DNA of 64,000 nucleotides from Spongiibacter sp. IMCC21906. Its GTDB lineage: Bacteria > Pseudomonadota > Gammaproteobacteria > Pseudomonadales > Spongiibacteraceae. Numbering within the stretch: the first letter of the stretch is position 1; each line of letters starts with the position of its first letter. The stretch spans positions 186,001-250,000 of the forward strand of contig NZ_CP011477.1 of assembly GCF_001010805.1 (NCBI RefSeq). The letters are read 5' to 3'. A model generated the notes under the pieces. That model did no database searches, was not told where the DNA came from, and was given only the letters and a program-made list of their open reading frames with translations. Both the position numbers and the translations under genes were made by a program. Below, piece by piece: positions 1 through 61,153 of this stretch.

Positions 1-480
1 CCCTTGTCGTCATACCGACCCCCGGCTCGTAGGCCGGGGCAGGCTCCACTCCGTCATACCGGCCTCCGAGCCGGTATCCAGTAAACCACTGTGCCATGAA
101 TAGTCTCTGAGGTTGGATTCAAGCCCCAGCAGCTGGATCCCGGCTCGCTGCGCGTCCGGGATGACGGGAGGGGGAAGTTGGTACGCCCGGGATAAACTAT
201 GGCTAGGCCCCGAGGGTCAGGATGACGGGGCGCTACAACCACCCTTGTCGTCATACCGGCCCCTCTACGTCATACCGGCCTCCGAGCCGGTATCCAGTAA
301 ACCACCGTGCCATGAATAGTCCCTGAGGTTGAATTCAGATCCGAGCAACTGGATCCCGGATCGCTACGCGTCCGGGATGACGGGAGGGGGAAGTTGGTAC
401 GCCCGGGATAACAGGAGGAAGTTGGCACGTCTGGAATGACGGCAAGTTTGGGTGGGGCGCTGCACGTCCGAAATGAAGGA
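1..480. repeat. Family 1 hairpin repeats, array upstream of GIY-YIG gene
   Basis: Two clear pairs of imperfect palindromes are visible. B-type hairpins (CGTCATACCGG...CCGGTATCCAG) lie at 52-81 and 268-297. Each is followed about 50 bases later by an A-type hairpin in the opposite orientation, at 133-166 and 349-382, with stem CCCGG...CCGGG and outer CGTC/CCAG ends. Partial copies lie at 7-50 and 249-267. Pair order here is B forward then A reversed, opposite to the array downstream of the GIY-YIG gene at 839. Short open frames here are translated repeats, not genes. Positions 480-838 are AT-richer and hold no gene I can recognise. Confidence 0.9.
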
Positions 481-838
481 AGATTGAGAGCATTTCTACA
501 CGTCCGGAGCAACAAAATATTGAAGCGATGACTACCGTATTTGAGTAAAAAATAAAAAGTAAGGATTTAAATCAAAAAAATTTACAGATTTCTTTGCAAA
601 TTCTGACACGGCGTCTATATTCTTAAGGTGGCTTAGGATGAGCCTTTGGCATGGAAGGCACTCTCAGGACGAGAGGTCAACACGGGATGGTTTGGCGTTG
701 CCAAGGAGGCGACTGCTTTTCTGCCACCTTTTTATTAGCCGGCTTCTTTTAACAAGAAGCTTACGCACTTTGCTTTACAACATCTGACATAATTATCTGC
801 CCCTGCTTGATCCTTCGCTTTAGCAAGGAGGCTAGCGT

Positions 839-1126
839 ATGCATCAACCTGCTGTTTATATTTTGGCCAACCGCCGAAATGGCACTTTGTATACTGGGGT
901 GAGCGCCGATTTGCCCGGCCGGATTTGGCAACATAAACAGCATTTGGTAGAAGGATTCAGTAAACGCTATCAAACACATTTACTAGTGTACTTTGAATGC
1001 CATAGCTCTATGTATGAAGCGATTGCCAGAGAAAAACAATTAAAGCGATGGCGGCGGCAATGGAAGCTGGAATTAATAGAAACAATGAATCCTAATTGGC
1101 AAGACCTGTACGACACCTTATTTTAA
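839..1126 (+). CDS. GIY-YIG nuclease-like protein (YhbQ/UPF0213-type), flanked by family 1 repeats
   Basis: A 95-residue single-domain GIY-YIG protein. The first motif is VYIL near residue 7, the second LYTGV near residue 18, followed by an arginine helix (DLPGRIWQHK) and the segment AIAREKQLKRW, whose glutamate fits the metal-binding catalytic residue of the fold. The start is supported by GGAGG about 8-12 bases upstream. Small GIY-YIG proteins of this type are poorly characterised; nuclease activity is known for the fold, not shown for this protein. The gene stands alone between two arrays of the same palindromic repeats (1-480 and 1240-2215), in opposite orientations, which suggests a link between protein and repeats. 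Fold confidence is high; role is inferred. Confidence 0.85.
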   Translation: MHQPAVYILANRRNGTLYTGVSADLPGRIWQHKQHLVEGFSKRYQTHLLVYFECHSSMYEAIAREKQLKRWRRQWKLELIETMNPNWQDLYDTLF

Positions 1127-1229
1127 GGCCTTTCCCGAATTTTAATGTATTACCCACTGCCATTATTTCTTTAAAAGGCTTCAGGCTAAAACACTAAGAC
1201 CTCGCCACATCGAAGGACTAGACAATACA

Positions 1230-2215
1230 CAAAGACCCCGTCATCTCAGCCGGGATATAGATACACTGCGCTAAACTAACTCCCCATGCCCTTTTCTCGC
1301 ACAGTGGTTTACTGGATACCGGCTCGGAGGCCGGTATGACGACATTAGGGAGGATCGGCAACATGCTCCCTTCGTCATCCCGGACACCGCAGGTGAGCCG
1401 GGATCCAGCTACACGGTGCTAAACTAACTCCCCATACCCTTTCCTGCACGGTGATCTACTGGATACCGGCTCGGAGGCCGGTATGACGACATTAAGAAAA
1501 ATCGGTGACACGCACGTTCCTTTCGTCATCCCGGACGCGACAGCGAGCCGGGATCCAGCTGCTCGGGCTTGATTCAACCTCGGGGACTATTTATGAGACG
1601 GTGGTTTACTGGATACCGGCTCAAAGCCTGCCCCGGCCTACGAGCCGGGGGCCGGTATGACGACATTAAGAAGAATCGGTGACACGCTCCCTCCGTCATC
1701 CTGGACGCCGCAGGTGAGCCGGGATCCAGCTACGCGGTGCTAAACTAACTCCCCATGCCCTTTTCTCGCACGGTGGTTTACTGGATACCGGCTCGGAGGC
1801 CGGTATGACGACATTAGGGAGGATCGGCAACATGCTCTCTTCGTCATCCCGGACACCGCAGGTGAGCCGGGATCCAGCTACACGGTGCTAAACTAACTCC
1901 CCATGCCCTTTTCTCGCACAGTGGTCTACTGGATACCAGTTCAAAGCCTGCCCCGGCCTACGAGTCGGGGGCCGGTATGTCGACATTAAGAAGAATCGGT
2001 GACACGCACGCTCCCTTCGTCATCCTGGACGCGACAGCGAGCGAAAAGGACATGGAAAAAGCCAAAAACCTGTTCTTCGTCATCCCGGACGCGATAGCGA
2101 GCCGGGATCCAGCTGCTCGGGCTTGATTCAACCTCGGGGACTATTTATGACACGGTGGTTTACTGGATACCGGCTCGGAGCCTGCCCCGGCCTACGAGCC
2201 GGAGGCCGGTATGGC
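1230..2215. repeat. Family 1 hairpin array between GIY-YIG gene and ggt
   Basis: Alternating B reversed (CTGGATACCGG...CCGGTATGACG) and A forward (CGTCATCCCGG...CCGGGATCCAG) elements. B copies start near 1314, 1461, 1608, 1779, 1927 and 2162. A copies start near 1372, 1525, 1695, 1850 and 2082. The A loop varies: some copies carry a CACC/GGTG inner stem, others CGC/GCG, so pairing is kept while sequence changes. Several B copies contain an expanded GCCTGCCCCGGCCTACGAG loop. No convincing gene is present. Confidence 0.9.
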
Positions 2216-2364
2216 GATATAAGGAAGTAATCCCCCTGGGAATACCGAGCGAGCTGGTGACACTCACTGCCGTTACTATCGACATTTTGAGAGGCCTTCT
2301 AACTTTCCGATAGGGCTTGGACTCAGTACTATGGCTCATCCCACCAACAAAACACGGTCTGACA

Positions 2365-4139: not shown

Positions 4140-5400
4140 ACGTCTGGCGGCTTTCTGGATACCGGCTCAGAGGCCGGTAGGACGACGTAGGGCAGGTTGA
4201 TGGCACTCACAGCTTTTACCGAAGGGCGGCATCACAAAACAAAAACGCTGGTACACACTCCCTCCGTCATCCCGGACGCGATAGCGAGCCGGGATCCAGC
4301 TGCTCGGTGTTATGTTTTTACTACAGGTAGATATTCATAGCGCGGTGGCTTTCTGGATACCGGCTCGGGGGCCGGTATGACGACATGAGGGCTGTCATCC
4401 ACGTCTTACCGAAGACTGGCATGACTACACGAGGAGAGTCGGCCAAGCTCTCCCCCACTCATCCCCGCAGAATAATAACCCTCACCCCGTCATCCCGGAC
4501 GCGATAGCGAGCCGGGATCCAGCTGCTCGGTGTCATGTTTTACTACAGGTAGATATTCATAGTGCGGTGGTCTTCTGGATACCGGCTCGGAGGCCGGTAT
4601 GACGACATGGGGAGAGTCAATAGTAAGCACTGTCTTTACCGAAGACTCGTATAGCGACACGAGATGAGTCGGCGGCACACCTCCTCACTCATCCCTCGAA
4701 GAATAATAACCCCCACCCCGTCATCCCGGACGCGATAGCGAGCCGGGATCCAGTTGCTCGGTGTCATGTTTTTACTACAGGTAGATATTCATAGTGCAGT
4801 GGTCTTCTGGGTACCGGCTCGGGGGCCGGTATGACGATGCAGGGAGGGTTGATAGTAAGCACTGTCTTTACCCAAGGCCCGTATGACGACATGGGAATTG
4901 TCATCCACGTCTTACCGAAGACTGGCATGACGACACGAGGAGAGTCGACCAAGCTCTCCCCCACTCTCCCCCGCAGAATAATAACCCTCACCCCGTCATC
5001 CCGGACGCGATAGCGAGCCGGGATCCAGCTGCTCGGTGTCATGTTTTACTACAGCTAGATATTCATAGCGCGGCGGTCTTCTGGATACCGGCTCGGAGGC
5101 CGGTATGACGACATGGGGAGAGTCAATAGTAAGCACTGTCTTTACCGAAGACTAGTATAGCGACACGAGATGAGTCGGCGGCACACCTCCTCACTCATCC
5201 CTCGAAGAATAATAACCCTCACCCCGTCATCCCGGACGCGATAGCGAGCCGGGATCCAGCTGCTCGGTGTTATGTTTTATTACAGGGAGATATTCATAGT
5301 GCAGTGGTCTTCTGGATACCGGCTCAGAGGCCGGTATGACGATGCAGGGAGGGTCGATCGTAATCACTGTCTTTACCAAAGCCCTATGACGACGTAGGTA
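4140..5400. repeat. Family 1 hairpin array, ~230-270 bp units
   Basis: About five A forward hairpins (starts near 4266, 4492, 4720, 4995, 5226) alternate with B reversed hairpins (near 4353, 4577, 4807, 5080, 5311). The A-to-B gap is about 60 bases and carries a conserved filler (ACTACAGGTAGATATTCATAG). Units recur at roughly 230-270 bases and include a filler with GAGAGTC and TTTACCGAAG words. The array runs into the second GIY-YIG-like reading frame with almost no gap. Short open frames in it are repeat translations. Confidence 0.9.
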
Positions 5401-5529
5401 GGATTGAACCTACAAAACGACAAGGCACGTTTTTTAACTTATTGGTTATTTTTTCCGTATGCGCTGGCCATTCAGTTAATTAGCGCTACACTTATTTTTA
5501 CATTCTTTGCAACGCCATGGATTGGCATT

Positions 5530-5856
5530 ATGAAAATAGCGGCAATTTATATTCTTTATGATCCATCGGCCGGAGGTCGGTTGTATTTAGATGCCACGGC
5601 GGATTTGCAAAAGCGCCTTTGGGCACACAAGCATGCCCCGCCCAATCACGCAATTCGTAGCCTGCCAGAGCACACGCTCGTCTATTACGAAATTTTAGAA
5701 AACATGCATCAGGCGCTAATGCGAAAACGAGAAATTAAGCAAAGTGGCTCCCACACTAATATACGAATGATCAAGCAAAGCAATCCGGAGTGGCGGGACT
5801 TGTCTGCAGAGATTGCCAAGCAAGCCGGAGCTGTACATCCGAACCCACTGACTTAA
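5530..5856 (+). CDS. Degenerate GIY-YIG-like protein, second copy
   Basis: A 108-residue relative of the protein at 839-1126, alignable end to end: IYILYDPSAGGRLYLDATAD against VYILANRRNGTLYTGVSAD, and NPEWRDL against NPNWQDL near the C-terminus. The YIG-type motif has changed from LYTG to LYLD, and the position matching the catalytic Glu of AREKQ reads RKREI (Lys). The active site is therefore probably lost. The open frame extends upstream to 5404 with a hydrophobic segment, but homology begins at the ATG at 5530; no good ribosome site decides the start. It adjoins a family 1 array and overlaps the mutM stop by a few bases, tail to tail. It may be a pseudogene on its way out or a non-catalytic paralog. 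Confidence 0.6.
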   Translation: MKIAAIYILYDPSAGGRLYLDATADLQKRLWAHKHAPPNHAIRSLPEHTLVYYEILENMHQALMRKREIKQSGSHTNIRMIKQSNPEWRDLSAEIAKQAGAVHPNPLT

Positions 5857-12012: not shown

Positions 12013-12059
12013 CGAGGCTTTTAAAAACGACTTGTCCCTCGCGACACGCTTCCACTGCA

Positions 12060-14360
12060 AACAGCATCGTCATCCCGGACGCGATAGCGAGCCGGGATCC
12101 AGCTGCTCGGAGGAACGTTTTACCCCCGGCGTGAGTTCAAAGTGCGGCGGTTTTCTGGATACCGGCTCGGAGGCCGGTATGACGAAGCTCGGGAGAACTT
12201 TTTACCCTCGGCGTGAGTTCAAAGTGTGGCGGTTTTCTGGATACCGGCTCGGAGGCCGGTATGACAACCAAACAACACCGTCATCCCGGACGCGCAGCGA
12301 GCCGGGATCCAGCTGCTCGGAGGAACGTTTTACCCCCTGGGGGGGATTCAAAGCGCGGTGGCTTTCTGGATACCGGCTCAGAGGCCGGTATGACGAACCA
12401 AACAACACCGTCATCCTGGACGCGCAGCGAGCCGGGATCCAGCTGCTCGGAGAACGTTTTACCCCCGGCGGGAGCTCAAAGTGCGGTGGCTTTCTGGATA
12501 CCGGCTCGGAGGCCGGTATGACGACATGATGAGAATCGACGACATACTCACCCTGCTCTGCAAATACGAACGCTGCAGGATAATACCCTCACACCGTCAT
12601 CCCGGACGCGCAGCGAGCCGGGATCCAGTTGCTCGGAGAACGTTTTACCCCCGGCGGGAGTTCAAAGTGCGGTGGCTTTCTGGATACCGGCTCGGAGGCC
12701 GGTATGACGACATGGGGAGAATCGACGACATACTCACCCTGCTCTGCAATTACGAACGCAGCAGGGCGGCACCTTCCACCCCACCATGCCCAAAGCCACA
12801 TCACATTCCAAACAACACCGGCATCCCAGACACCACAAGATAGCCCCCTCTTCGTCATCTCGACCACTGCAGGATAATACCCTCACATCGTCATCCCGGA
12901 CGCGCAGCGAGCCGGGATCCAGCTGCTCGGGGAGCGTTTTACCCCCCCGCGGGAGTTCAAAGTGCGGTGGCTTTCTGGATACCGGCTCGGAGGCCGGTAT
13001 GACGACATGGAGAGAATCGACGACATACTCACCCTGCTCTGCAATTACGAACGCAGTAGGATGGCACCTTCCACCCCACCATGCCCAAAGCCACATCACA
13101 TTCCAAACAACATCGTCACCCCGGACGCGATAGCAAGCCGGGATCCAGTTGCTCGGAGAACGTTTTACCCCCGGCGGGAATTCAAAGTGCGGCGGTTTTC
13201 TGGATACCGGCTCGGAGGCCGGTATGACGACATGGGGAGAATCGACGACATACTCACCCTGCTCTGCAATTACGAACGCAGCAGGGCGGCACCTTCCACC
13301 CCACCATGCCCAAAGCCACATCACATTCCAAACAACACCGGCATCCCAGACACCACAAGATAGCCCCCTTTTCGTCATCTCGACCACTGCAGGATAATAC
13401 CCTCACATCGTCATCCCGGACGCGCGGCGAGCCGGGATCCAGTTGCTCGGGGAGCGTTTTACCCCCGGCGGGAATTCAAAGTGCGGTGGCTTTCTGGATA
13501 CCGGCTCGGAGGCCGGTATGACGACATGATGAGAATCGACGACATACTCACCCTGCTCTGCAAATACGAACGCTGCAGGATAATACCCTCACACCGTCAT
13601 CCCGGACGCGCAGCGAGCCGGGATCCAGTTGCTCGGAGAACGTTTTACCCCCGGCGGGAATTCAAAGTGCGGCGGTTTTCTGGATACCGGCTCGGAGGCC
13701 GGTATGACGACATGATGAGAATCGACGACATACTCACCCTGCTCTGCAATCACGAACGCTGCAGGGTGGCACCTTCCACCCCACCATGCCCAAAGCCACA
13801 TCACATTCCAAACAACACCGGCATCCCAGACACCACAAGATAGCCCCCTTTTCGTCATCTCGACCACTGCAGGATAATACCCTCACACCGTCATCCCGGA
13901 CGCGCAGCGAGCCGGGATCCAGCTGCTCGGGGAGCGTTTTACCCCCGGCGTGAGTTCAAAGTGCGGTGGCTTTCTGGATACCGGCTCGGAGGCCGGTATG
14001 ACGACATGATGAGAATCGACGACATACTCACCCTGCTCTGCAAATACGAACGCTGCAGGATGGCACCTTCCACTCAGTCATACCCGACACCACAAGATGG
14101 CCCCTCTTCGTCATCCCGATCGCTACAGGATAATACCCTCACACCGTCATCCCGGACGCGCAGCGAGCCGGGATCCAGCTGCTCAGGGAACGTTTTACCC
14201 CCGGCGGGAGCTCAAAGCGCGGTGGCTTTCTGGATACCGGCTCGGAGGCCGGTATGACGAAGCTCAAGGGAACGTTTTACCCCCGACGGGAGCCCAAAGT
14301 GCGGTGGCTTTCTGGATACCAGCTCGGAGGCCGGTATGACGAAGCTCGGAGGCGTGAGGA
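12060..14360. repeat. Family 1 hairpin array with large internal duplications, between cyaA and lptM
   Basis: About ten A forward and twelve B reversed hairpins, with fillers GAGAATCGACGACATACTCA and GTTTTACCCCCGGCGGGA between them. Higher-order copies are visible: blocks near 12629-12877 and 13149-13397 match at an offset of 520 bases, and blocks at 12481 and 13481 match at an offset of exactly 1000 bases. A further copy begins near 13961. Many long open frames here encode the same repeat translations (for example GYRLGGRYDD, DTGSEAGMTT) in several frames and are not genes. In related genomes cyaY lies in this position. Confidence 0.92.
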
Positions 14361-14552
14361 CGAAGTGCATAAATTCTCTAGTGGCAGGAGTGACGAAGCG
14401 CGGCGGTCATCTAAAGACGGGGTTAACGCGCGAGAAGATCGCTATGACAGGCTTAACGGAGATGCATTGAATCGGCCAGGCATAACAGCCCTTTCAGCCC
14501 AGTACCTGAGCTGGGTATAATGCCCGGCTTACTTACCCATTGGAGGCCCGCT

Positions 14553-17689: not shown

Positions 17690-19660
17690 CTCCGTCATAC
17701 CGGAGACCAAAAGATGTCCCCTCTTCGTCATACCAGATACGCCTTCCTCTTCGCCATCCAAGACACGCCTCTCTTTTCGTCATCCCGGACACGCCTCCCT
17801 TGCCGTCATCCCGGACGCGCCCCCCCTTTTCGTCATCCCGGACGCGATAGCGAGCCGGGATCCAGCTGCCCGGAGGCACGTTTTAACACTGGCGCTAATT
17901 CAGAGTTCGGTGGCTTTCTGGATACCGGCTCGGAGGCCGGTATGACGACATGGGGAGAATCGACGATATACTCACCTTACTCGCCGCAGAACCCCACCTT
18001 CTACTCCATCACCCCGAGCGCCGCTGAATGGCACCTTCCACTCAGGCATCCCCAACACCGCAGGATAATACCCCCACTCAAGTCATCCCAGACACGCCTC
18101 CCTTTTGGTCATCCCGGACGCGACAGCGAGCCGGGATCCAGTTGCTCGGAGGCACGCTTTAACACTGGCGGTGATTCAGAGTACGGCGGCTTTCTGGATA
18201 CCGGCTCGGAGGCCGGTATGACGACATGGGGAGGATCGACGATATACTCACCTTACTCTACAGTCACGCAACAGAACCCCACCGTCTACTCCGTCATCCC
18301 GAGCGCCGCAGGATAATTCCCCCACTCAGTCCTCCCAGGCACCACAAAATAACCCCTCTTCGTCATCCAAGATATGCCTCCCTTTTGGTCATCCCGGACG
18401 CGATAGCGAGCCGGGATCCAGCTGCTCGGAGAAACGTTTTAACACTGGCGCTAACTCAGAGTACGGCGGCTTTCTGGATACCGGCTCGGAGGCCGGTATG
18501 ACGACATGGGGAGAATCGACGATATACTCACCTTACTCTGCAGTCACGAACGCAACAGAACCCCACCGTCTACTCCGTCATCCCGAGCGCCGCAGGATAA
18601 TTCCCCCACTCAGTCCTCCCAGGCACCACAAAATAACCCCTCTTCGTCATCCAAGATACGCCTCCCTTTTGGTCATCCCGGACGCGATAGCGAGCCGGGA
18701 TCCAGCTGCTCGGAGGCACGCTTTAACACTGGCGGTGATTCAGAGTACGGCGGCTTTCTGGATACCGGCTCGAGGGCCGGTATGACGACATGGGGAGAAT
18801 CGACGATATTCTCACCCTACTCTACAGTCACGAACGCCGCAGGATGACACTTTCTCCTCCGTCATTCCGAGCGCCGCAGGATAATACCCCCACTCAAGTC
18901 ATCCCAGACACGCCTTCCTTTTCGTCATCCCGGACGCGACAGCGAGCCGGGATCCAGCTGCTCAGGGGCACGTTTTAACACTGGCGGTGATTCAGAGTAC
19001 GGTGGCTTTCTGGATACCGGCTCGGGGGCCGGTATGACGACATGGGGAGAATCGACGATATACTCACCTTACTCTGCAGTCACGAACGCCGCAGAATGAC
19101 ACTTTCTCCTCCGTCATTCCGAGCGCCGCAGGATAATACCCCCACTCAATTCATCCCCAACACCGCAGGATAATACCCCCCACTCAAGTCATCCCAGACA
19201 CGCCTTCCTTTTCGTCATCCCGGACGCGACAGCGAGCCGGGATCCAGTTGCCCGAGACACGTTTTAACACTGGCGGTGATCAAAGTACGGCGGCTTTTTG
19301 GATACCGGCTCGGAGGCCGGTATGACGACATGGTGAGATTCGACGATATACTCACCCTACTCTGGCAGTCACGAACGCAGCAGAACCCCACCTTCTACTC
19401 CGTCATCCCGAGCGCCGCAGGATAATTCCCCCACTCAGTCCTCCCAGGCACCACAAAATAACCCCTCTTCGTCATCCAAGATACGCCTCCCTTTTGGTCA
19501 TCCCGGACGCGATAGCGAGCCGGGATCCAGTTGCCCGAGACACGTTTTAACACTGGCGGTGATCAAAGTACGGCGGCTTTTTGGATACCGGCTCGGAGGC
19601 CGGTATGACGACATGGGGAGAATCGGCAAAGTTAGTAGTGAAGCCGGTATGACGATATGG
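17690..19660. repeat. Family 1 hairpin array, ~280 bp units, at the usual xerC position
   Basis: Seven A forward hairpins (near 17832, 18110, 18390, 18675, 18926, 19217, 19498), each followed about 85 bases later by a B reversed hairpin. The whole unit recurs at about 280 bases. The A-to-B filler is TTTTAACACTGGCGGTGATTC-like. The longer filler contains AATCGACGATATACTCACC, related to the filler of the 12-14 kb array. Degenerate single hairpin halves (CGTCATCCAAGA, CGTCATTCCGAG) lie between units. The array ends just inside the 3' end of the hydrolase gene at 19676. No coding sequence is supported. Confidence 0.92.
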
Positions 19661-19675
19661 GGAGATTCGGCAAAG

Positions 19676-20887
19676 TTAATAGTAAAGTTGCTGTTCGTTG
19701 TCTGACAACATTCCCTGGCAATGGCTGTCCATAAATCGCAACATCAATTTTAAATACTCGCCTTGTCCCCAGTGCATCATGTGATTGCCAGGAAACCAGT
19801 GCAGGTGGGATTCGGGCCAATGAGAATGCATCAACCGGACAAAACGAGGGGGCGTAAAGCGGTCTCCTGCGCCACCAATGATCATCACCTTTTCGGGATC
19901 GAGTTTGGGCTGGTAGGTTAAAGGACTATGAATGGCCATTCCCTGCCGCAGATCTAACGGGGTAATGCCACTGTGCTGGCTAATTAAGTCTAATAAATGG
20001 CCCGTGGGTTGCCAGCCGCGCATCGTATCCACCGGCGCAACCAAAGGCGAGTTGGGAATACAGAAGGCCAAGCGATGCTCAACCACTGCCATCAAGGCGC
20101 TAATATAACCACCTAAGCTCAGCCCGGTAATGCCTACACTAGGCGTACCGCGCTCAACTAAATAATTGAAGAGTACCCGTAGGTCACTCACCGCATGTAG
20201 CACTGCCTCGTTTATCTGTGAAAACCCACCCGAAAACACCCCAAAACCATTAAAGAGACGATAGCTATCCGCGCGTTTGCCATGAAACGGCAGGGTAAAC
20301 ATCACCACGTCATAGCCTTGATCATAAAAAGACTTTAAGGAGAAAAATACGCTATTAACGCTGTACCAGCTCTCGACCACCCCGTGCACAAAAATCATGG
20401 TGGGGCGGGGGCCTTCGGGATGACGCCAGTGCAAAGCCCGTGCTCGACGGTTGTTTTTATGACTGAGGTAGCTGGCAGTGATATCTGGATTGAGGGGTGT
20501 AAAGGGGCTATCAAAACACAGCTCCACCGCCGGAATATCTTTCGGTATGCGGGTAAAAAAAGAGGGCTTGCACTCTTCTACGTAAACATCAGCCGGGGGC
20601 TGAAACACTTGATTAATGTCCCGGGCTTCGGCCATCTCTGTATAAAAATCCAGCCAGTGACGCTCTTTGCTTCCCATCGCTCCCTTGAGCAGCTTTGGTA
20701 ACATTGCCGCAGTCACCATTGCCCCTAAGCCACTGCGAAGCACCCGATCAATGGCGGCAGAGCCATAAACCTTAACCGGATACTCTGAATCCAGCTCGGT
20801 ACCATCTGATTGACAGTAAAAATCTTCTGGCAAGGTTCGCCACCACGGCGGTGACTCAGTCACCAAATGAAGGGCAGATTCCCGCAT
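19676..20887 (-). CDS. Alpha/beta hydrolase (ABHD18-like)
   Basis: 403 residues with an alpha/beta hydrolase core in the second half. The oxyanion segment is FVHGVVESWYS (about residue 170), the nucleophile elbow GLSLGG (about residue 250), a probable acid residue in GGAGDRFTP and a histidine in GNHMMHW near the C-terminus. The long N-terminal region resembles the ABHD18/DUF2048 group, but I hold that subfamily loosely. Substrate is unknown. It reads against the neighbouring lysA cluster and HAD gene, so it looks inserted between DUF484 and the HAD gene. Confidence 0.75.
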   Translation of the reverse strand: MRESALHLVTESPPWWRTLPEDFYCQSDGTELDSEYPVKVYGSAAIDRVLRSGLGAMVTAAMLPKLLKGAMGSKERHWLDFYTEMAEARDINQVFQPPADVYVEECKPSFFTRIPKDIPAVELCFDSPFTPLNPDITASYLSHKNNRRARALHWRHPEGPRPTMIFVHGVVESWYSVNSVFFSLKSFYDQGYDVVMFTLPFHGKRADSYRLFNGFGVFSGGFSQINEAVLHAVSDLRVLFNYLVERGTPSVGITGLSLGGYISALMAVVEHRLAFCIPNSPLVAPVDTMRGWQPTGHLLDLISQHSGITPLDLRQGMAIHSPLTYQPKLDPEKVMIIGGAGDRFTPPRFVRLMHSHWPESHLHWFPGNHMMHWGQGEYLKLMLRFMDSHCQGMLSDNEQQLYY

Positions 20888-25934: not shown

Positions 25935-26831
25935 TTATTTTGCGTTTTCTAAAACTTTAACCCGGCGCTCCAAGGCCTCTAGGCGCTGCAATAGCGAGCG
26001 ATTTTCTTTGGCTGATGATTGACTAGCCGCAGGGGACTGCATCATCAATGAATCAATCATGACGGCTCCGCTACTCCCTGGCTCACCGGACAAGCCCACG
26101 CTGCCTGATAAACCGGCCTCACCTCCTGAAACCCATTGACGGTTTCCCGCCAAGGTTTTCTTGGTAATGTAGTGACCACCACCGCCCTCACCGCTGCTGC
26201 CACCTCGGCCACCCGCACCGCCTTTCCCAGGCTCTGCACTGACCTTGACTCGCTGTGATACATCGATCGGCTCCAGATCACTGCCAAGCACTCTATACAA
26301 AATGGTGATTTCGCCACCGCTGCCACCTACGCCGCCATCACCGCCGTCGCCGCCATCGCCACCGCGCTCGCCGGCACAATCATCGTTATTATCAGCGCCA
26401 TTACCGCCGCTGCCACCGTTACCCCCGTTTCCGCCATCAGCGAGAATATTGAGGCTACCCAGCGACTCGATTCCCAGTTGCAAGCGCATCGACACACCAT
26501 CTGTGCCCGGCGCCCCATGGGCACCACCTTGGCCGTTTAACTGGTTTTTGCAATTATTAGCAGACACCCCACTGATGCCAGATTCGCCAACACTGCCACG
26601 ACCATCAATAACAACATTGTCACCAATGACAGCCGTTTTAGCTTGAACTCGCCATGCCGCGATTCCCTCAGCAAAACGAATATGGGCGGCATCACCGATT
26701 TCCAAATAATCAAGAACCAGCTGAGAGTTGTCTTTCTCAACCAGATAACTTTGACCAGGCCCAATCTTCAGCTCAGCGGCTAAAGTCATTGCAGGCAATA
26801 AGCCCAGCATCATTACTGCAAAGGATCGCAT
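25935..26831 (-). CDS. Exported glycine-rich protein with C-terminal coiled coil, next to the urease locus
   Basis: 298 residues from the ATG at 26831, with a signal peptide ending TLAAE (about residue 18). Residues 100-250 are very rich in glycine in GxxG runs such as GGNGGNGGSGGNG, GGDGGDGGDGGVGG and GEGGGG, collagen-like in composition but without a strict Gly-X-Y repeat. The C-terminus (LLQRLEALERRVKVLENAK) is a heptad-like coiled coil. One or two cysteines lie near N-terminal and middle asparagine-rich segments. I do not recognise the family. It lies 127 bases after the nickel permease gene and in the same direction. It could be a surface or matrix protein; nothing ties it to urease beyond position. 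Confidence 0.7.
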   Translation of the reverse strand: MRSFAVMMLGLLPAMTLAAELKIGPGQSYLVEKDNSQLVLDYLEIGDAAHIRFAEGIAAWRVQAKTAVIGDNVVIDGRGSVGESGISGVSANNCKNQLNGQGGAHGAPGTDGVSMRLQLGIESLGSLNILADGGNGGNGGSGGNGADNNDDCAGERGGDGGDGGDGGVGGSGGEITILYRVLGSDLEPIDVSQRVKVSAEPGKGGAGGRGGSSGEGGGGHYITKKTLAGNRQWVSGGEAGLSGSVGLSGEPGSSGAVMIDSLMMQSPAASQSSAKENRSLLQRLEALERRVKVLENAK

Positions 26832-29439: not shown

Positions 29440-30315
29440 ACTTACTGGAGGGAGCGGGCACCGACCGCGATTCGTGCAAATCTCTTTCGGCCTCAGCGCG
29501 GCCTCCTACAAACCCTTCACCCCGCCCTGTAGGAGCGGGCGCCGACCGCGACAGAAGCGACTTCAACCCCTGCCAACCCCTTCGGCCTCGGCGCGGCCTC
29601 CTACAAGCCCATCACTCCGCCCTGTAGGAGCGGGCGCCGACCGCGACAGAATCGACCTCAATCCGTGCAAACCTCTTTCGGCCTCAGCGCGGCCTCCTAC
29701 AAACCCATTACCCCACCTGTAGGAGCGGGCGCCGACCGCGACAGAATTTACCTCAAGCCCTGCCAACCCCTTCGGCCTCGGCGCGGCCTCCTACAAACCC
29801 ATCACCCCGCCTTGTAGGAGCGGGCGCCGACCGCGACAGAATCGACCTCAATCCATGCCAACCCCTTCGGCCTCGGCGCGGCCTCCTACAAACCCATCAC
29901 CCCACCTGTAGGAGCGGGCGCCGACCGCGACAGAATCGACCTCAATCCCTGCCTACCCCTTCGGCCTCGGCGCGGCCTCCTACAAACCCATTACCTCACC
30001 CTGTAGGAGCGGGCGCCGACCGCGACAGAATCGACCTCGATCCATACAAACCCCTTCAGCCTCGGCGCGGCCTCCTGCAACCCCATCACGCCGCCTGTAG
30101 GAGCGGGCGCTGACCGCGACAGAATTTACCTCAAGCCCTGCCAACCCCTTCGGCCTCGGCGCGGCCTCCTACAAACCCATCACCCCGCCTTGTAGGAGCG
30201 GGCGCCGACCGCGACAGAATCGTCCTCGATCCGTGCAAATCTCTTTCGGCCTCAGCGCGGCCTCCTACAAACCCATCACCCTCCCCTGTAGGAGCGGGCG
30301 CTGACCGCGACGTTC
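29440..30315. repeat. REP array (family 2) between ureE and ureC
   Basis: About nine pairs at roughly 95-base period. Each pair has CGGCCTCGGCGCGGCCTCCT, a ~20-base spacer, then GTAGGAGCGGGCGCCGACCG. The two inner heads read CTCCTAC and GTAGGAG, so each pair is a REPIN-like inverted dimer with GTAG heads inside. Fillers such as CAGAATCGACCTCAATCC repeat too. Short open frames here are translated REPs. Confidence 0.95.
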
Positions 30316-30324
30316 TCCCCAACA

Positions 30325-32028
30325 TTAAAACAAGCAATAACGCTGCGCTAATGGCAACTCGGTTGCGGGTTCGCAGGTGAGCACCACACCGTCTGCTTTC
30401 ACTTCATAGGTATTGGTATCCACTTCCATTACCGGCTGATAATCGTTGAGGACCATGTCGGCTTTAGTAATATTGCGGCAATTTTTAACGGCGACCAGCG
30501 GCCGCTGTAAACCCAGCGTTTCAGCCAAATTCGACGCCAGCGCCGCCTGGCTGACAAAGCTCACCGAGGTAGCCGTACAGGCTTTACCAAAGGCACCAAA
30601 CATCGGCCGGTAATGCACCGGCTGCGGGGTGGGAATGGAGGCATTGGGGTCACCCATCGGCGCGGCGGCAATCATACCGCCCTTGATAATCATTGATGGT
30701 TTTATGCCAAAGAACATCGGCTTCCACAGTACCAAGTCCGCTAATTTCCCCACTTCAATCGAGCCGACTTCATGAGCCAGACCCTGGGTAATCGCCGGGT
30801 TAATGGTGTATTTGGCAATATAGCGCCGGGCGCGAAAATTATCGCTGTACGCCGAATCTTCAGGCAGCGGTCCCCGTTGCACTTTCATTTTGTGGGCGGT
30901 TTGCCACGTCCGGCAAACCACTTCACCCACCCGCCCCATGGCTTGAGAATCTGACGAGATCATTGAGAAAGCACCGAGGTCGTGGAGAATATCCTCTGCA
31001 GCAATGGTCTCTTTACGAATCCGCGAGTCGGCAAAGGCCACATCCTCAGGAATATTGGGATCAAGATGGTGGCAGACCATCAACATATCCAAGTGTTCGT
31101 CCACGGTGTTGATAGTATAAGGGCGGGTGGGATTGGTGGATGACGGTAAAACATTGGCGCTACCACAAGCCTTGATGATATCTGGCGCATGACCACCCCC
31201 GGCACCCTCGGTATGGTAGGTGTGAATAGTGCGCCCTTTAAACGCCGCCAACGTGTCCTCTACAAAGCCAGATTCATTCAAGGTGTCAGTATGAATCGCG
31301 ACCTGCACGTCGTACTTTTCGGCCACACTCAAGCAACAGTCGATGGACGCTGGCGTCGTACCCCAGTCCTCATGAAGCTTAAGCCCCATCACCCCCGCTT
31401 TAACCTGCTCTTCCAGCGATTCGGGAAGACTGGCATTACCTTTACCCAAAAAGCCCAGGTTCATGGGAAAACTTTCAGCGGCCTGCAACATTTTGCCAAT
31501 ATGCCACGGTCCCGGTGTACAGGTGGTGGCATTGGTACCCGTGGCCGGACCAGTGCCACCACCAATCATGGTGGTCACACCGCTCATCAAGGCCTCTTCA
31601 ATCTGCTGGGGACAAATAAAATGAATATGGGCGTCAATGGCACCGGCCGTCAGGATTTGCCCTTCACCGGCGATCACCTCGGTACCGGGGCCAATAATAA
31701 TGGTCACATCCGGCTGAATATCCGGATTACCGGCCTTGCCAATCGCCGTGATACGCCCCGCTTTGATGGCTACGTCGGCCTTGACGACGCCCCAGTGATC
31801 CAAGATCAAGGCATTGGTAATCACCGTATCTGGGGTATGGGCACTGCCCAGCTGGCCTTGCCCCATGCCGTCGCGAATCACTTTGCCACCGCCAAACTTC
31901 ACTTCTTCGCCGTAGGTAGTAAAGTCCTTCTCCACCTCAATCCATAGCGCCGTGTCGCCCAGGCGGACCCGATCGCCCACAGTTGGGCCATACATATCCG
32001 CGTAGGCGCGGCGGTCTATTTTGCTCAT
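30325..32028 (-). CDS. ureC: Urease alpha subunit
   Basis: 567-residue catalytic subunit; hydrolyses urea to ammonia and carbamate with two nickel ions. Metal-site segments DAHIHF, the lysine-carbamylation segment [24 protein letters not shown] and the flap segment [20 protein letters not shown] (H residues of the active-site flap) are all present. It overlaps ureB by 4 bases. No frame damage is visible. Confidence 0.98.
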
Positions 32029-32699: not shown

Positions 32700-33190
32700 T
32701 CATAGTAGCCAGCACCGACCACGATATTCTTCACCAAAACCCATCGGCCTCAGCGCGGCCTCCTACAAACTCGGCATTGCCTCTAATCCCGTAGGAGCGG
32801 GCGCCGACCGCGACATTCTTCACCAAAACCCATCGGCCTCAGCGCGGCCTCCTACAAACTCGGCATTGCCTCTAATCCCGTAGGAGCGGGCGCCGACCAC
32901 GATATTCTTCACCAAAACCCATCGGCCTCGGCGCGGCCTCCTACAAACCCGGCATTACCTCTAACCCTGTAGGAGCGGGCACCGACCGCGAGACCTCGAT
33001 CCGCGCAAACCTCTTTCGGCCTCAGCGCGGCCTCCTACAAACTCATCACCCCACCTGTAGGAGCGGGCGCCGACCGCGACAGAATCGACCTCGATCCGTG
33101 CAAACCTCTTTCGGCCTCAGCGCGGCCTCCTACAAACCCGGCATTGCCTCTAATCCCGTAGGAGCGGGCGCCGACCGCGATGGATCAACA
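32700..33190. repeat. REP array (family 2) between ureA and ureD
   Basis: Five REP pairs at about 90-base period, with the same two halves and inward GTAGGAG heads as the array at 29.4-30.3 kb. Halves start near 32747, 32834, 32923, 33017 and 33116. The array lies inside the urease operon between ureD and ureA. Confidence 0.95.
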
Positions 33191-36280: not shown

Positions 36281-36733
36281 ATGACATATCAAGCCCACAG
36301 CAAAAATCTCCGCCAGGGCCGCCGCTCCTTCCCCGGACAAATCTATTTAATTACCACCTGCACCGAGCATCGGCGCCATTACTTTAGCAATTTATGGGTC
36401 GGACGCTGTGTGGTTAACGCTCTACGAGACGCTCAGTACGCGTCCACTCTGGCCTTTGTGGTCATGCCTGATCATCTACATTGGTTGATGGCCTTAGAGG
36501 ATAAGTCGAATTTGTCCCAAACCGTACAATTCGTCAAAACCCATGCTGCCCGCCAATGTAATCGACTTATTGGGCGCACAGGCAAACTCTGGCAATCGGG
36601 GTTTCATGACCACGCCCTGCGGCGAGATGAAGATATTCAAGCCTGTGCTCGTTATATCATTGCCAACCCACTGCGAGCCGGTTTGGTGAAAGAAATTGGC
36701 CATTACCCACTTTGGGATGCCGTGTACTTTTAG
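36281..36733 (+). CDS. rayT: REP-associated tyrosine transposase (RAYT)
   Basis: 150-residue Y1 HUH transposase-like protein. The HUH motif is VVMPDHLHWLMAL (about residue 65), and the catalytic Tyr is expected in ARYIIANPLRAG (about residue 127). RAYTs cut and join single-stranded REP hairpins and are thought to spread them. Here the gene lies between family 2 REP copies at 36.1 and 36.7-37.0 kb, which is the usual RAYT layout. ATG at 36281 has AAGGAAGG about 9-13 bases upstream. Confidence 0.94.
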   Translation: MTYQAHSKNLRQGRRSFPGQIYLITTCTEHRRHYFSNLWVGRCVVNALRDAQYASTLAFVVMPDHLHWLMALEDKSNLSQTVQFVKTHAARQCNRLIGRTGKLWQSGFHDHALRRDEDIQACARYIIANPLRAGLVKEIGHYPLWDAVYF

Positions 36734-36734
36734 A

Positions 36735-37045
36735 CCTTTGTCGTCGCGGTCAGCGCCCGCTCCCACACAGGGGGGGGCAACATGTAGGAGACCGCGCTGA
36801 GGCCGAAGGGGTTGGCATGGATCGAGGTCAATTCTATCGCGGTCGGCGCCCGCTCCTACAGGCGGGGTGAGGGGGCTGTAGGAGGCTGCGCTGAGGCCGA
36901 AGGGGTTGGCATGGATCGAGGTCAATTCTATCGCGGTCGGCGCCCGCTCCTACAGGCGGGGTGATGGGGCTGTAGGAGGCCGAAAGCGGGATGGCACAGA
37001 TCCAGGGAAGTTCTATCGCGGTTAGTGCTCGCTCCTGCAATGAAC
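36735..37045. repeat. REP pairs downstream of RAYT gene
   Basis: Three family 2 REP pairs (near 36745, 36835, 36930) reading opposite to those in the urease cluster, each GGTCGGCGCCCGCTCCTAC then GTAGGAG...GCTGAGGCCGAAG. One half is partly lost near 37020. The run stops ~100 bases before the rep start. Confidence 0.92.
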
Positions 37046-44527: not shown

Positions 44528-44604
<77 letters not shown>

Positions 44605-44637
44605 TTTATTGGTTTTAAACCATCGGCCATTCCTCTT

Positions 44638-46408
44638 TCCATCTATTTATATTCCTGCCACCAGCGATGCGTCCCCCTTACTGAGGGGTAACACTCATCA
44701 CGCAGCTCTACCCCCATAAACAGGAACTGGCACTCATCTCTCGTCATACCAGCTTTAAGCCGGTATCCAGGCAACCTCGGTGCAATAAATTTCCGTCGTA
44801 GTAAATACCTTGCTCCGATGCTGGATCCCGGATCGCCTGATGGCGTCCGGGATGACGACAAATATGTGCGTCTGGTATTTACGAATCGTCTGCGTATTCC
44901 GCAAGTGCGCGCTGGTGACGTATATGTGATTTTAATCATTGAGAATCGCCGCTGTATTCCACAAATGGGCGTTGGTAACGCCTATATTCAATATTCCTTA
45001 ATCACTTCGTCATACCGGCTTTAAGCCGGTATCCAGTCAGCCTCGGTGCAATACACCTCTGCCTTAGTAAATACCTTGCTTCGATGCTGGATCCCGGATC
45101 GCCTGATGGCGTCCGGGATGACGACAAATATGTGCGTCTGGTATTTACGAATCGCCGCAGTATTCCACAAGCGCGCGTTGGTGACGTATATGTGATTTTA
45201 ATCATTGAGAATCGCCGCTGTATTCCACAAATGGGCATTGGTAACGCCTATATCCAATATTCCTTAATCACTTCGTCATACCGGCTTTAAGCCGGTATCC
45301 AGTCAACCTCGGTGCAATACACCTCTGCCTTAGTAAATACCTTGCTCCGATGCTGGATCCCGGATCGCCTGATGGCGTCCGGGATGACGACGTATATGTG
45401 CGTCTGGTATTTAGGAATCGTCTGCTGTATTCCGCAAGTGCGCGCTGGTGACGTATATGTGATTTTAATCATTGAGAATCGCCGCTGTATTCCACAAATG
45501 GGCGTTGGTAACGCCTATATCCAATATTCCTTAATCACTTGGTCATACCGGCTTTAAGCCGGTATCCAGTCAGCCTCGGTGCAATACACCTCTGCCTTAG
45601 TAAATATCTTACTCCGAAGCTGGATCCCGGATCGCCTGTTGGCGTCCGGGATGACGACAAATATGTGCGTCTGGTATTTACGAATCGTCTGCTGTATTCC
45701 GCAAGTGCGCGCTGGTGACGTATATGTGATTTTAATCATTGAGAATCGCCGCTGTATTCCACAAATGGGCGTTGGTAACGCCTATATTCAATATTCCTTA
45801 ATCACTTCGTCATACCGGCTTTAAGCCGGTATCCAGTCAGCCTCGGTGCAATACACCTCTGCCTTAGTAAATACCTTGCTCCGATGCTGGATCCCGGATC
45901 GCCTGATGGCGTCCGGGATGACGACGTATATGTGCGTCTGGTATTTAGGAATCGTCTGCTGTATTCCGCAAGTGCGCGCTGGTGACGTATATGTGATTTT
46001 AATCATTGAGAATCGCCGCTGTAATCCACAAATGGGCGTTGGTAACGCCTATATTCAATATTCCTTAATCACTTCGTCATACCGGCTTTAAGCCGGTATC
46101 CAGTCAACCTCGGTGCAATAAATTTCCGCCATAGTAAATACCTTGCTCCGATGCTGGATCCCGGATCGCCTGATGGCGTCCGGGATGACGACAAATATGT
46201 GCGTCTGGTATGTACGAATCGCCGCAGTATTTCACAAGCGTGCGCTGGTAATGCCTATACTCAACATTCCTCTACCCCCGAGCCATAACGGCTTAAAGCC
46301 GTTATGGCTCGGGGGATGGCACTCATCTCACTCTGTTAATCACACCGTCCATCTATTTATATTCCTGCCACCAGCGATTCGTCCCCCTACTGAGGGGTAA
46401 CACTCATC
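44638..46408. repeat. ~267-bp tandem hairpin array after tRNA-Arg, bounded by a 61-bp direct repeat
   Basis: Six units start near 44742, 45008, 45274, 45541, 45808 and 46075, at offsets of 266-267 bases. Each begins with a fully palindromic variant of the family 1 B hairpin (ATACCGGCTT|T|AAGCCGGTAT core, CGTC/CCAG ends) and contains a reversed A-type hairpin (CTGGATCCCGG...CCGGGATGACG) ~80 bases further on. The whole array lies between two nearly identical copies of a 61-62-base sequence, 44638-44699 and 46348-46408. Short frames repeating in several phases are not genes. Confidence 0.92.
46275..46315. repeat. Perfect 19-bp hairpin closing the tRNA-side array
   Basis: CCCCCGAGCCATAACGGCT, loop TAA, then its exact complement: a 19-base-pair uninterrupted stem, 41 bases in total. 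The inner GGCTTAAAGCC resembles the core of the neighbouring hairpins, but the outer sequence is new. No T-run. Confidence 0.9.
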
Positions 46409-50402: not shown

Positions 50403-51418
50403 TCACATACCAAGAAAAGAAAGCCCACCCACATCACCACTTAAAATCTCACCAATTGTCGGAACTGCACCCGTACCCAAATCAAGCCCTTGGGTAGCTA
50501 GAGCAGAAAAAACCACGGGACCTAACACCTGTACAGGATTTCGACCAACCACAGGAAGGCCAATAGGTAGAGTATAGTTCATCACCAAATCTTCCAAGCC
50601 TGACACTAAGCCCTCAGGAGTTAAAAAGTTACTCAGATCAACACCGACCAAAGGAATTGCAGCGATTCCACCTCCGCCAAGAACATTGCTCACAATATCC
50701 AGGCCTAAGTCAAGAACCGTATCCAGCCCACCTGTTAGCAGGCCAGTTGCAACAGGCGGCAACTCAAGACCCAGCACATCAGTTGCCGATACTAAGGAGC
50801 CAATCCCATCCAAAGACAAGGCGTCCAGGCCGTCTAAGCCACCCAGACCAGTACCCCCAACCAGCGGTATCGCGCCCAACAAATTATCGGACAACGATTC
50901 CAAGGAAAGAATGTTCAGCGGTAAGCCACCAGAAAGCAGCGGTATACCACCGCCAGACAGCAGGTCTAACAGCAACACCGCCAGTAATCTCCACAATAGC
51001 AGCGCCACAGACCACCGCCCAGTAAATCTCCCACAATAGGCAGGCCGCCACCAGACAAACCACCGCCCAGTAAATCTCCCACAATAGGCAGGCCGCCACC
51101 AGACAGACCACCGCCCAGTAAATCTCCCACAATAGGCAGGCCGCCACCAGACAGACCACCGCCCAGTAAATCTCCCACAATAGGCAGGCCGCCACCAGAC
51201 AGACCACCGCCCAGTAAATCTCCCACAATAGGCAGGCCGCCACCAGACAGACCACCGCCCAGTAAATCTCCCACAATAGGCAGGCCACCACCAGACAGAC
51301 CACCACTCAACAAGCTTCCAACCACTGGAATTTGCGCAGATGCAGGACCAGACATCAATGCCGTTGCACAAGCAACGCCATAAAGAGCAGATTTAGCTTT
51401 CTTAAATTTTACTGCCAT
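50403..51418 (-). pseudogene. Secreted 16-residue-repeat protein, frameshifted
   Basis: One gene that is now in two frames. The 5' part (51418 to 50966) encodes a signal peptide (ends ASAQ) and six perfect copies of LPIVGDLLGGGLSGGG, 48 bases each. The 3' part, in another frame to 50403, encodes a related Leu/Gly-rich tail (LLSGGGIPLLSGGLPLNIL, LLGAIPLVGGTGLGGLDGL, IGEILSGDVGG). The shift falls in a degenerate repeat copy at 50982-51019, where several single bases are missing from runs (AAA to AA, CCC to CC, GG to G). That pattern could be uncorrected sequencing error rather than mutation. Restoring the frame would give a protein of about 340 residues with a Gly/Leu-repeat fold, family unknown. 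A terminator follows. Confidence 0.75.
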
Positions 51419-60663: not shown

Positions 60664-61153
60664 GCGCGGCCACCAAGGCCAACAATTGATCACGTTCAGC
60701 TGCCTCAGCCGAAATCGCGCACAACAGAATATTTGAATTGTGCTGTTTCATGTCATTGCTAACGTCAGCCTTCAGCAATGACGCATATTCCTCTGACAAT
60801 TTCTCAGCCAATATCGACAGCTGCCACTGTTCAAGCGCCAACTCCGCGTCCTTTAGCGCTTGATATGCTCTATCGGGAGCCTGAGCTTTAGCCGCGACTC
60901 GCATAGCCCGCATGGGTAAAATATAGCTCTGCCGCAGCTCAGCACAGGCCTTGCGAAGCCGCGCCACCGTCGCTGTGGACCACACCATCCCCTTGAGGTC
61001 GCTAAAACCTGCCGCCAGTAACATATTTACGTCCTGGCCAAATTGCGTTTGCAAAGCCAAACATAATTCTGCAACTTCAGGCTGGCCATAACGCGCCAAA
61101 GCATAGCGCCACAGCGCATCCGTGAGATTTTCTTTACTAAAGCCTTCTTTCAC
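60653..61153 (-). CDS. TIGR02444 family protein
   Basis: 166 residues, mostly alpha-helical, with the family patterns LWRYALARYGQPEVAELCLALQ near the N-terminus and RLRKACAELRQSY. Function unknown. It overlaps the AlgP-like gene by 11 bases tail to tail and diverges from the ABC-F gene after 30 bases, as in Pseudomonas. Confidence 0.82.
   Translation of the reverse strand: MKEGFSKENLTDALWRYALARYGQPEVAELCLALQTQFGQDVNMLLAAGFSDLKGMVWSTATVARLRKACAELRQSYILPMRAMRVAAKAQAPDRAYQALKDAELALEQWQLSILAEKLSEEYASLLKADVSNDMKQHNSNILLCAISAEAAERDQLLALVAALNL

Follow-up and report, generated by a model that had tools for sequence, protein, structure and literature searches.

Does the small GIY-YIG nuclease gene that lies among palindromic repeats in Spongiibacter sp. 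IMCC21906 belong to these repeats, and if so, what might its product do with them? The gene sits in a stretch of 64,000 nucleotides, hereafter the window, which corresponds to positions 186001-250000 of contig C1 (NZ_CP011477.1) of this genome (G000). A preliminary description, made from the letters alone, had suggested that the protein recognises or spreads the hairpins around it. From the comparisons reported below, it is quite probable that the two form a two-part system, in which a small GIY-YIG endonuclease recognises a family of CGTC-type hairpins. Gene and hairpins are physically linked, occur together and diverge in a correlated manner, and repeats are concentrated around the gene in several species. 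What stands of the earlier suggestion is that gene and hairpins belong together; recognition of the hairpins by the protein is well supported by inference, while their spreading by it is only suggested.

Hairpin arrays of one family lie on both sides of the gene in opposite orientations (Table 1), and the coordinates confirm the preliminary description in this respect. The left array extends beyond the start of the window (184275-185840 of the genome), and three A copies of the right array (at 1609, about 1930 and about 2164) have longer loops, two of which escaped our structural scan. The repeated unit is an inverted pair, as had been described, consisting of a B hairpin (CGTCATCCCGGAC...GCCGGGATCCAG) and an A hairpin (CGTCATACCGGCCTCCGAGCCGGTATCCAG) with a spacer of about 50 nt and the CGTC ends pointing outward; the pair can also be folded as one long hairpin (z = -5.1). 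The structural scan detected 71 CGTC-type hairpins in the window versus 0-2 in 10 shuffles; among the 71, three (one at 26011 and two at 60751, one per strand) appear to be chance hits, and the one at 249 counts a nested hairpin twice. Four further arrays are present and, again as first described, none is near the window's RAYT-like gene, the nearest convincing CGTC hairpin being 8 kb away from it. Across the whole genome, a strict pattern gave 208 exact matches and a looser one 329, with no match for either reversed control. A tandem array of a variant hairpin (six units, period 266-267; region 44528-46190) starts about 140 nt past a tRNA-Arg gene.

These hairpins carry CGTC at one end, paired AT at the stem base and an unpaired CCA tail on a short stem-loop, and they occur in many copies, mostly as inverted heads-out (HH) heterodimers, a geometry taken from the window. 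All these traits are shared with the CGTC superfamily of repetitive extragenic palindromes (REPs) as set out by Di Nocera et al. 2013 (PMC3733652), and the window's hairpins are CGTC-type REPs in that sense. Rfam gave no match in the hairpin repeats. According to that paper (Di Nocera, De Gregorio, Rocco 2013), CGTC REPs "apparently lack a dedicated transposase", the CGTC-1 REPs of Neisseriae are dRS3 repeats, and grouped elements are rare except in Neisseriae and Wolbachia. Our case differs in two ways: long arrays are common here, whereas grouped elements are mostly rare there, and a GIY-YIG gene is tied to the repeats, whereas no enzyme is named in that paper.

The Arg, Glu and Asn of GIY-YIG enzymes have catalytic roles, and the 95-aa protein encoded by the gene contains all three together with the GIY and YIG motifs, as expected of a member of this superfamily. 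Its catalytic site is intact, with Y7, Y18, G20, R28, H32, E65 and N84 invariant in an alignment of 30 rows (made without L034 and L044, which have in-frame stops, and also without L013, L032, L051, L068, L069, L070, L087 and L097). The predicted fold (pLDDT 95.5) most resembles YhbQ-type proteins (1zg2), Slx1 and the nuclease domain of UvrC; scores in the fold search were modest (best E 1.6e-3). Sequence matches to WD-40 chains in the PDB were read as repeat-score noise. Two other GIY-YIG proteins exceed the Pfam cut-off in the same genome, namely UvrC and a short YhbQ-like protein, the latter being 34% identical to the 95-aa protein over about 70 residues. Although UPF0213/YhbQ-type proteins (PDB 1zg2, 1ywl) have the closest solved folds, their loci in these genomes lack full-form flanking CGTC hairpins. 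The gene is free-standing between coaD and ggt, and not inside an intron or intein as expected of a homing endonuclease; an intron-endonuclease model of NCBIfam yielded 16.8 bits (cut-off 56), and the PADLOC 'homing endonuclease' model an E value of only 0.018. Nor is the protein a Y1 HUH transposase like the RAYTs, since a Y1 match is absent, and the repeats around its gene are of the CGTC type instead of the GTAG type. A diverged GIY-YIG open reading frame (ORF) sits between a hairpin array and mutM (5404-5856, Table 1), and its orthologue in the sister species G210 (48% identity) adjoins mutM as well. Judged from its sequence, this ORF is probably an inactive paralogue, which might still bind hairpins.

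We analysed linkage between gene and hairpins in the best 80 of at least 525 confirmed relatives in named genomes, assigned by record titles to Alpha-, Beta-, Gamma- and Deltaproteobacteria, Chloroflexi, Zixibacteria, Elusimicrobia, Atribacterota and Patescibacteria. Of the 80, 67 have a CGTC hairpin no further than 500 nt from the gene, and hairpin density was 2.19 per kb near the gene versus 0.14 per kb further out. Hairpins were present on both sides at 48 of the 80 loci, 77 of which have 250 nt of sequence on each side. Orientation was also biased: the nearest upstream hairpin was on the plus strand in 47/59 and the nearest downstream one on the minus strand in 46/56, so that the usual frame is a plus hairpin about 20-50 nt upstream and a minus hairpin about 5-50 nt downstream of the matched coding part, a REPtron-like arrangement. 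Counting 8-mers with no hairpin model gave the same picture, with CGTCATGC occurring in 38/80 near flanks and 0/80 distal samples, and the words enriched in near flanks proved to be pieces of such hairpins. Among control loci of UvrC and short YhbQ-like genes, only 2/16 were called flanked, both without the ATCCA end (the fragmentary locus L108 being judged over its full 2 kb). Moreover, hairpin distance correlated with protein distance (Mantel r 0.64, with 0/2000 permutations as high) over the 64 of 80 loci that have a hairpin no more than 250 nt away and a gene free of in-frame stops, partly because gene and flanks share inheritance.

For co-occurrence, a genome was called repeat-rich when it held at least 20 matches of GTCATNCYN{8,36}RGNATCCA, a pattern whose reversed control gave at most 7 matches in any row of the order list, and the gene was called at E <= 1e-13. 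Among 18 genomes of the genus, all seven with an intact gene were repeat-rich (329 matches in G000, 139 in G245, 123 in G249, 101 in G152, 73 in G247, 64 in G210 and 62 in G246), compared with 2/11 without one (Fisher P 0.0023). Nine of these 11 hold 0-7 matches: two whose diverged gene lacks the catalytic Tyr and Arg (G056, 2; G132, 0), and seven with no gene of this type (G108 and G191, 7 each; G229, 3; G248, G172 and G250, 2 each; G252, 1). The two rich ones are G251 (109) and G020 (55). On a mutM tree of 17 rows, from which G251 was left out as it gave no mutM match, the rich/poor label switches about four times, two of them forced, and the pattern therefore does not reflect one inherited event, though the independent events are few.

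A strong but imperfect association also exists in the order, where repeat-rich genomes make up 15/25 of those with the gene and 7/220 of those without (245 genomes, Fisher P 1e-12); counted by genus, the figures are 9/14 versus 5/95 (P 7e-7). Within the 25 gene-bearing genomes, the outcome followed the flanks of the best gene, as 14/16 with a flanked gene were rich versus 1/9 with an unflanked one. The flanked exceptions are G120, whose hairpins end in ATCTCA or ATCTCG and thus fall outside the pattern, and G024 with 16 matches. The test put forward in the preliminary description, that genomes with the gene should be rich and others poor, accordingly came out clearly in favour at both levels, with exceptions that are weighed below.

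The place of the gene is also informative. From gene names read from translations, its old place is coaD - GIY - ggt - mutM - hyuA, and it is found there in G000, G245, G247, G249, G152, G056 and G132, as well as in G210 as a copy 52% identical to the window's gene. The gene is thus mostly inherited vertically. In G246 the old place is split, and the coaD-GIY half keeps about 20 hairpins while the ggt-mutM-hyuA half, on another contig, has none; relocation of the gene itself was ruled out, as it is still beside coaD and it is the ggt-mutM half that lies elsewhere. Repeats crowd round the gene in five species, where the 15-18.5 kb at the gene contain 45/329 (G000), 28/123 (G249), 25/101 (G152), 13/139 (G245) and 12/73 (G247) of the genome's matches against 0.3-1.8 expected, ratios that are approximate since local counts take one match per start and genome totals come from the search tool. 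In G210, which has more than one such gene, 5/64 matches lie at the hairpin-flanked copy (0.31 expected) and 0/64 at the unflanked one. On a larger scale, at least 77 of the 101 matches in G152 fall at 591-651 kb with the gene at 603 kb, and at least 87 of the 139 in G245 at 179-279 kb with the gene at 212 kb (each among 100 matches listed); in G000, at least 81 of 112 forward strict matches are within 100 kb of the gene (among 100 listed, a few nested).

Comparison of filled and empty sites, as the preliminary description had proposed, gave a divided answer. On the favourable side, 16 of the 18 genus genomes have nothing between ftsY and ftsE, which adjoin or overlap, while the junction is filled in two sister species. 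The insert in G210 (L131/L209) is about 0.98 kb and carries a GIY-YIG gene between repeats, whereas that in G000 (L210), of about 1.1 kb, consists of CGTC pairs and GTAG-type repeats without the gene. The G210 copy at ftsY-ftsE is 71% identical to the window's gene, compared with 52% for the copy at the old place, which makes at least one past move or exchange of a gene copy between sites probable. At ftsY-ftsE in G210, the two flanks of the gene are near-copies of one another with the same orientation, at 88% over 255 columns; homologous recombination between arrays could move a gene flanked in this way. On the other side, none of five sites compared in the close pair G245/G247 has a clean new pair. 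Two sites retain their hairpin, one of them with an adjoining 22-nt indel; another two vary in repeat units that adjoin existing ones; and at the fifth, 39 nt with a single hairpin, bounded by short direct repeats, occur in one species but not in the other, a difference that could equally be a small deletion. These sites show turnover, not transposition.

We consider the protein most likely to be a site-specific hairpin or single-stranded DNA nuclease acting on its own target family. GIY-YIG enzymes of a family named Ssn, first found in Neisseria and said to be described in Nat Commun in 2025, reportedly cut single-stranded DNA at specific repeats; the target of the Neisseria enzyme reportedly lies in dRS3-type repeats, and it is said to limit or shape the uptake and recombination of foreign DNA by cutting incoming single strands. 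Like the Ssn enzymes, the present GIY-YIG protein is small and free-standing, and its cognate repeat occurs both beside the gene and throughout the genome; site-specific cutting of single-stranded DNA would be predicted for it as well. If Ssn is as reported, this system belongs to an already known kind. It would then add a tie to CGTC REPs, inverted bracketing across phyla, joint absence in the genus, crowding, and an insertion with empty sites, with possible overlap with the Ssn paper. The preliminary description knew of no published precedent, and this was probably wrong, given the reported Ssn family and the CGTC REPs described in 2013 (PMC3733652). Titles and abstract openings yielded nothing linking GIY-YIG proteins to CGTC or dRS3 repeats, a weak negative because the 2025 Ssn paper was outside this coverage; the terms 'GIY' and 'nuclease' were absent from RepRanger 2025 (PMC12306157), and the single mention of GIY-YIG in a review on restriction (PMC12707154) concerns a different subject.

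How might such an enzyme act? The protein would bind the unpaired ends and the base of the hairpin (5'-CGTC-AT...AT-CCA-3') in DNA that is single-stranded or extruded, as may arise on the lagging strand, during recombination or in DNA taken up, and would cut at the bound ends or base. Recurrent cutting and repair could further promote recombination between hairpins, leading to multiplication of units in tandem and near the gene, and might allow the gene to travel within an array. Once the enzyme is lost, the repeats would no longer be renewed and would decay, which fits their near absence in nine of 11 congeners without an intact gene. Recognition and cutting make the economical reading, whereas amplification and travel of the gene in arrays are weaker parts of it.

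On this mechanism, the enzyme would play for CGTC REPs the role that RAYTs play for GTAG REPs, with an unrelated fold. The two systems share inverted hairpin doublets, a cluster beside the enzyme gene, a mostly vertically inherited gene, and co-divergence of enzyme and repeat, as described for RAYT/REPIN by Bertels and Rainey 2011 (PMC3116915). According to that paper, enzyme genes are mostly vertical and RAYTs single-copy, whereas two or three related GIY-YIG genes occur in G210, G162 and G096; and RAYTs are Y1 HUH enzymes with GTAG repeats, whereas a GIY-YIG fold goes with CGTC repeats here. We therefore tentatively raise the broader idea, with the balance leaning somewhat against it, that in many phyla this type of GIY-YIG nuclease is the dedicated enzyme that CGTC REPs had seemed to lack. 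Nuclease and hairpins would then form a second selfish system parallel to RAYT/REPIN, with an enzyme that arose independently; cutting at hairpins would amplify them near the gene, and the gene would spread inside arrays. In 2013 CGTC REPs were still without an enzyme, and two unrelated folds would, if this were true, have joined independently to short bacterial hairpin families. In any case the genus offers a ready natural experiment on the rise, spread and death of repeats, with 7/18 genomes intact and rich, absences, a split locus and an insertion with 16 empty sites, and it could tell the effect of an Ssn-like nuclease over evolutionary time, beyond the reach of a cleavage assay.

Several observations weigh against the two-part system. 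Sphingomonads are over-represented among the 80 loci, the linkage and Mantel figures are inflated by flanking hairpins inherited with the gene, and the cut-offs of E <= 1e-13 and 20 matches were chosen after the lists had been seen. On the mutM tree the label clusters weakly, shuffled labels being equally low in 50/500. Both rich congeners lack a detected gene; the genome of G251 is 84% complete and misses mutM too, and that of G020, 100% complete, has a contig that stops inside a hairpin array at the gene's place. In the order, 10/25 gene genomes are repeat-poor (two of their genes lack catalytic residues and one has an in-frame stop), and in 7/22 repeat-rich genomes UvrC, short YhbQ-like proteins or others are the sole GIY-YIG members, so the gene is not needed for repeats to be present. 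Repeats are mostly dispersed in G210 (among 50/64 listed) and in G162 of another genus (among 100/102 listed), and G249 has clusters far from the gene on another contig (among 50/123 listed). Hairpin cutting by the 95-aa protein is itself a step that we infer. Finally, a weak, sub-threshold GIY-YIG match near a hairpin in the gene-less rich genome G218 leaves room for another GIY-YIG protein that might serve.

This last match came from a search for hidden GIY-YIG genes with PF01541 in eight genomes, comprising the seven above the 20-match threshold and G155. UvrC was present in all eight and was the sole match in G029. Six (G020, G093, G129, G155, G175 and G194) have in addition a short protein of 103-119 aa, which we read as YhbQ-like from the sequences inspected for four of the six, and G218 has two further weak matches, one below the cut-off. 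No full CGTC hairpins were found beside any match except the sub-threshold one in G218, and hidden genes of this kind were rejected as the explanation for the gene-less rich genomes. The G218 match (L129) lies in a 176-aa frame with a CGTC hairpin about 280 nt away. In the order sample, two small genomes of genus g51, G175 (248 matches) and G194 (218 matches), harbour large orphan repeat families; their GIY-YIG proteins are only UvrC and the short YhbQ-like one.

Of the alternatives, a nuclease that limits or shapes the uptake and recombination of foreign DNA, cutting incoming single strands at hairpins that are kept for that purpose, survives best, although we regard it as somewhat unlikely. 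It accords with the joint absence of gene and hairpins in most gene-less congeners and with a fold nearest to YhbQ-type, Slx1 and UvrC nucleases, but the crowding of repeats round the nuclease gene itself in several species speaks against it. Rather unlikely, in our view, is a transposase-like disseminator that excises hairpin pairs and inserts copies elsewhere, as proposed for RAYT/REPINs. Linkage and co-occurrence, the ftsY-ftsE junction with its inserts in two sister species and its empty state in the 16 remaining genomes, the dispersed doublets of G162 and the 39-nt hairpin between short direct repeats could all be read in this way; yet the G245/G247 sites gave 0/5 clean new pairs in virgin sequence (two kept the hairpin and two differ within or beside an existing array), and the gene mostly keeps its neighbours across the genus and within several groups of named loci. 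GIY-YIG enzymes are also not known to have strand-transfer activity, which counts against dissemination as well.

It is improbable that hairpins simply amplify by replication slippage and recombination, with the gene merely placed in a repeat-prone neighbourhood. Arrays of close species do differ by repeat units, and orphan repeat families exist without the gene, but such hitchhiking is at odds with bracketing in a preferred orientation across phyla, with joint absence in the genus, and with G246, where the repeats accompany the gene while the other half of its former surroundings has none. Mobilisation by the genome's own RAYT, whose Y1 protein is encoded in the window, is extremely improbable, as GTAG-type repeats, not CGTC ones, lie beside that gene, no convincing CGTC hairpin occurs within 8 kb of it, and Di Nocera et al. 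(PMC3733652) encountered no RAYT with CGTC repeats at its flanks. We thus retain the two-part system of GIY-YIG endonuclease and cognate CGTC hairpins, and its independence of the RAYT, as first described, is supported.

Table 1 Positions of the GIY-YIG genes, hairpin arrays and RAYT-associated features in the window (nt).
Feature	Position	Strand	Details
GIY-YIG nuclease gene	839-1126	+	95 aa; Pfam PF01541 54 bits, cut-off 22.6
Left hairpin array	1-420		A(+) 52-81, B(-) 133-166, A(+) 268-297, B(-) 349-382
Right hairpin array	1312-2216		A(-)/B(+) pairs; e.g. A 1312-1341, B 1373-1408, A 1459-1488, B 1524-1558
Further array	4142-5381 (approx.)		B(+)/A(-) pairs as in right array
Further array	12030-14380 (approx.)		same B(+)/A(-) pairs
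Further array	17700-19683 (approx.)		same B(+)/A(-) pairs
Tandem array of sequence variant	44742-46190 (approx.)		A(+)/B(-); period 266-267
Diverged GIY-YIG ORF	5404-5856	+	15 bits, below Pfam cut-off; without YIG and catalytic Glu
RAYT-like gene	36281-36733		Pfam Y1_Tnp
GTAG-type repeats and RAYT-like gene regions	29451-30310, 32705-33180, 36281-36733 (RAYT-like gene), 36783-36982

The RAYT was rejected as the cause of the CGTC hairpins because it has its own GTAG repeats. These GTAG-type repeats (TGTAGGAGCGGGCGCCGACCGCGAC) form arrays beside urease genes and directly downstream of the RAYT-like Y1 gene, so that the window also holds the second REP superfamily, accompanied by an enzyme of its own. 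In the same region, an Rfam match to the 5' ureB small RNA (76.5 bits) lies at 31594-31877, on the strand opposite a urease alpha-subunit-like gene. At 50959-51390, seven tandem repeats with a spacing of 48 nt lie within a minus-strand ORF encoding a peptide repeat of the GGLSGGGLPIVGDLL type, where overlapping frames are also open.

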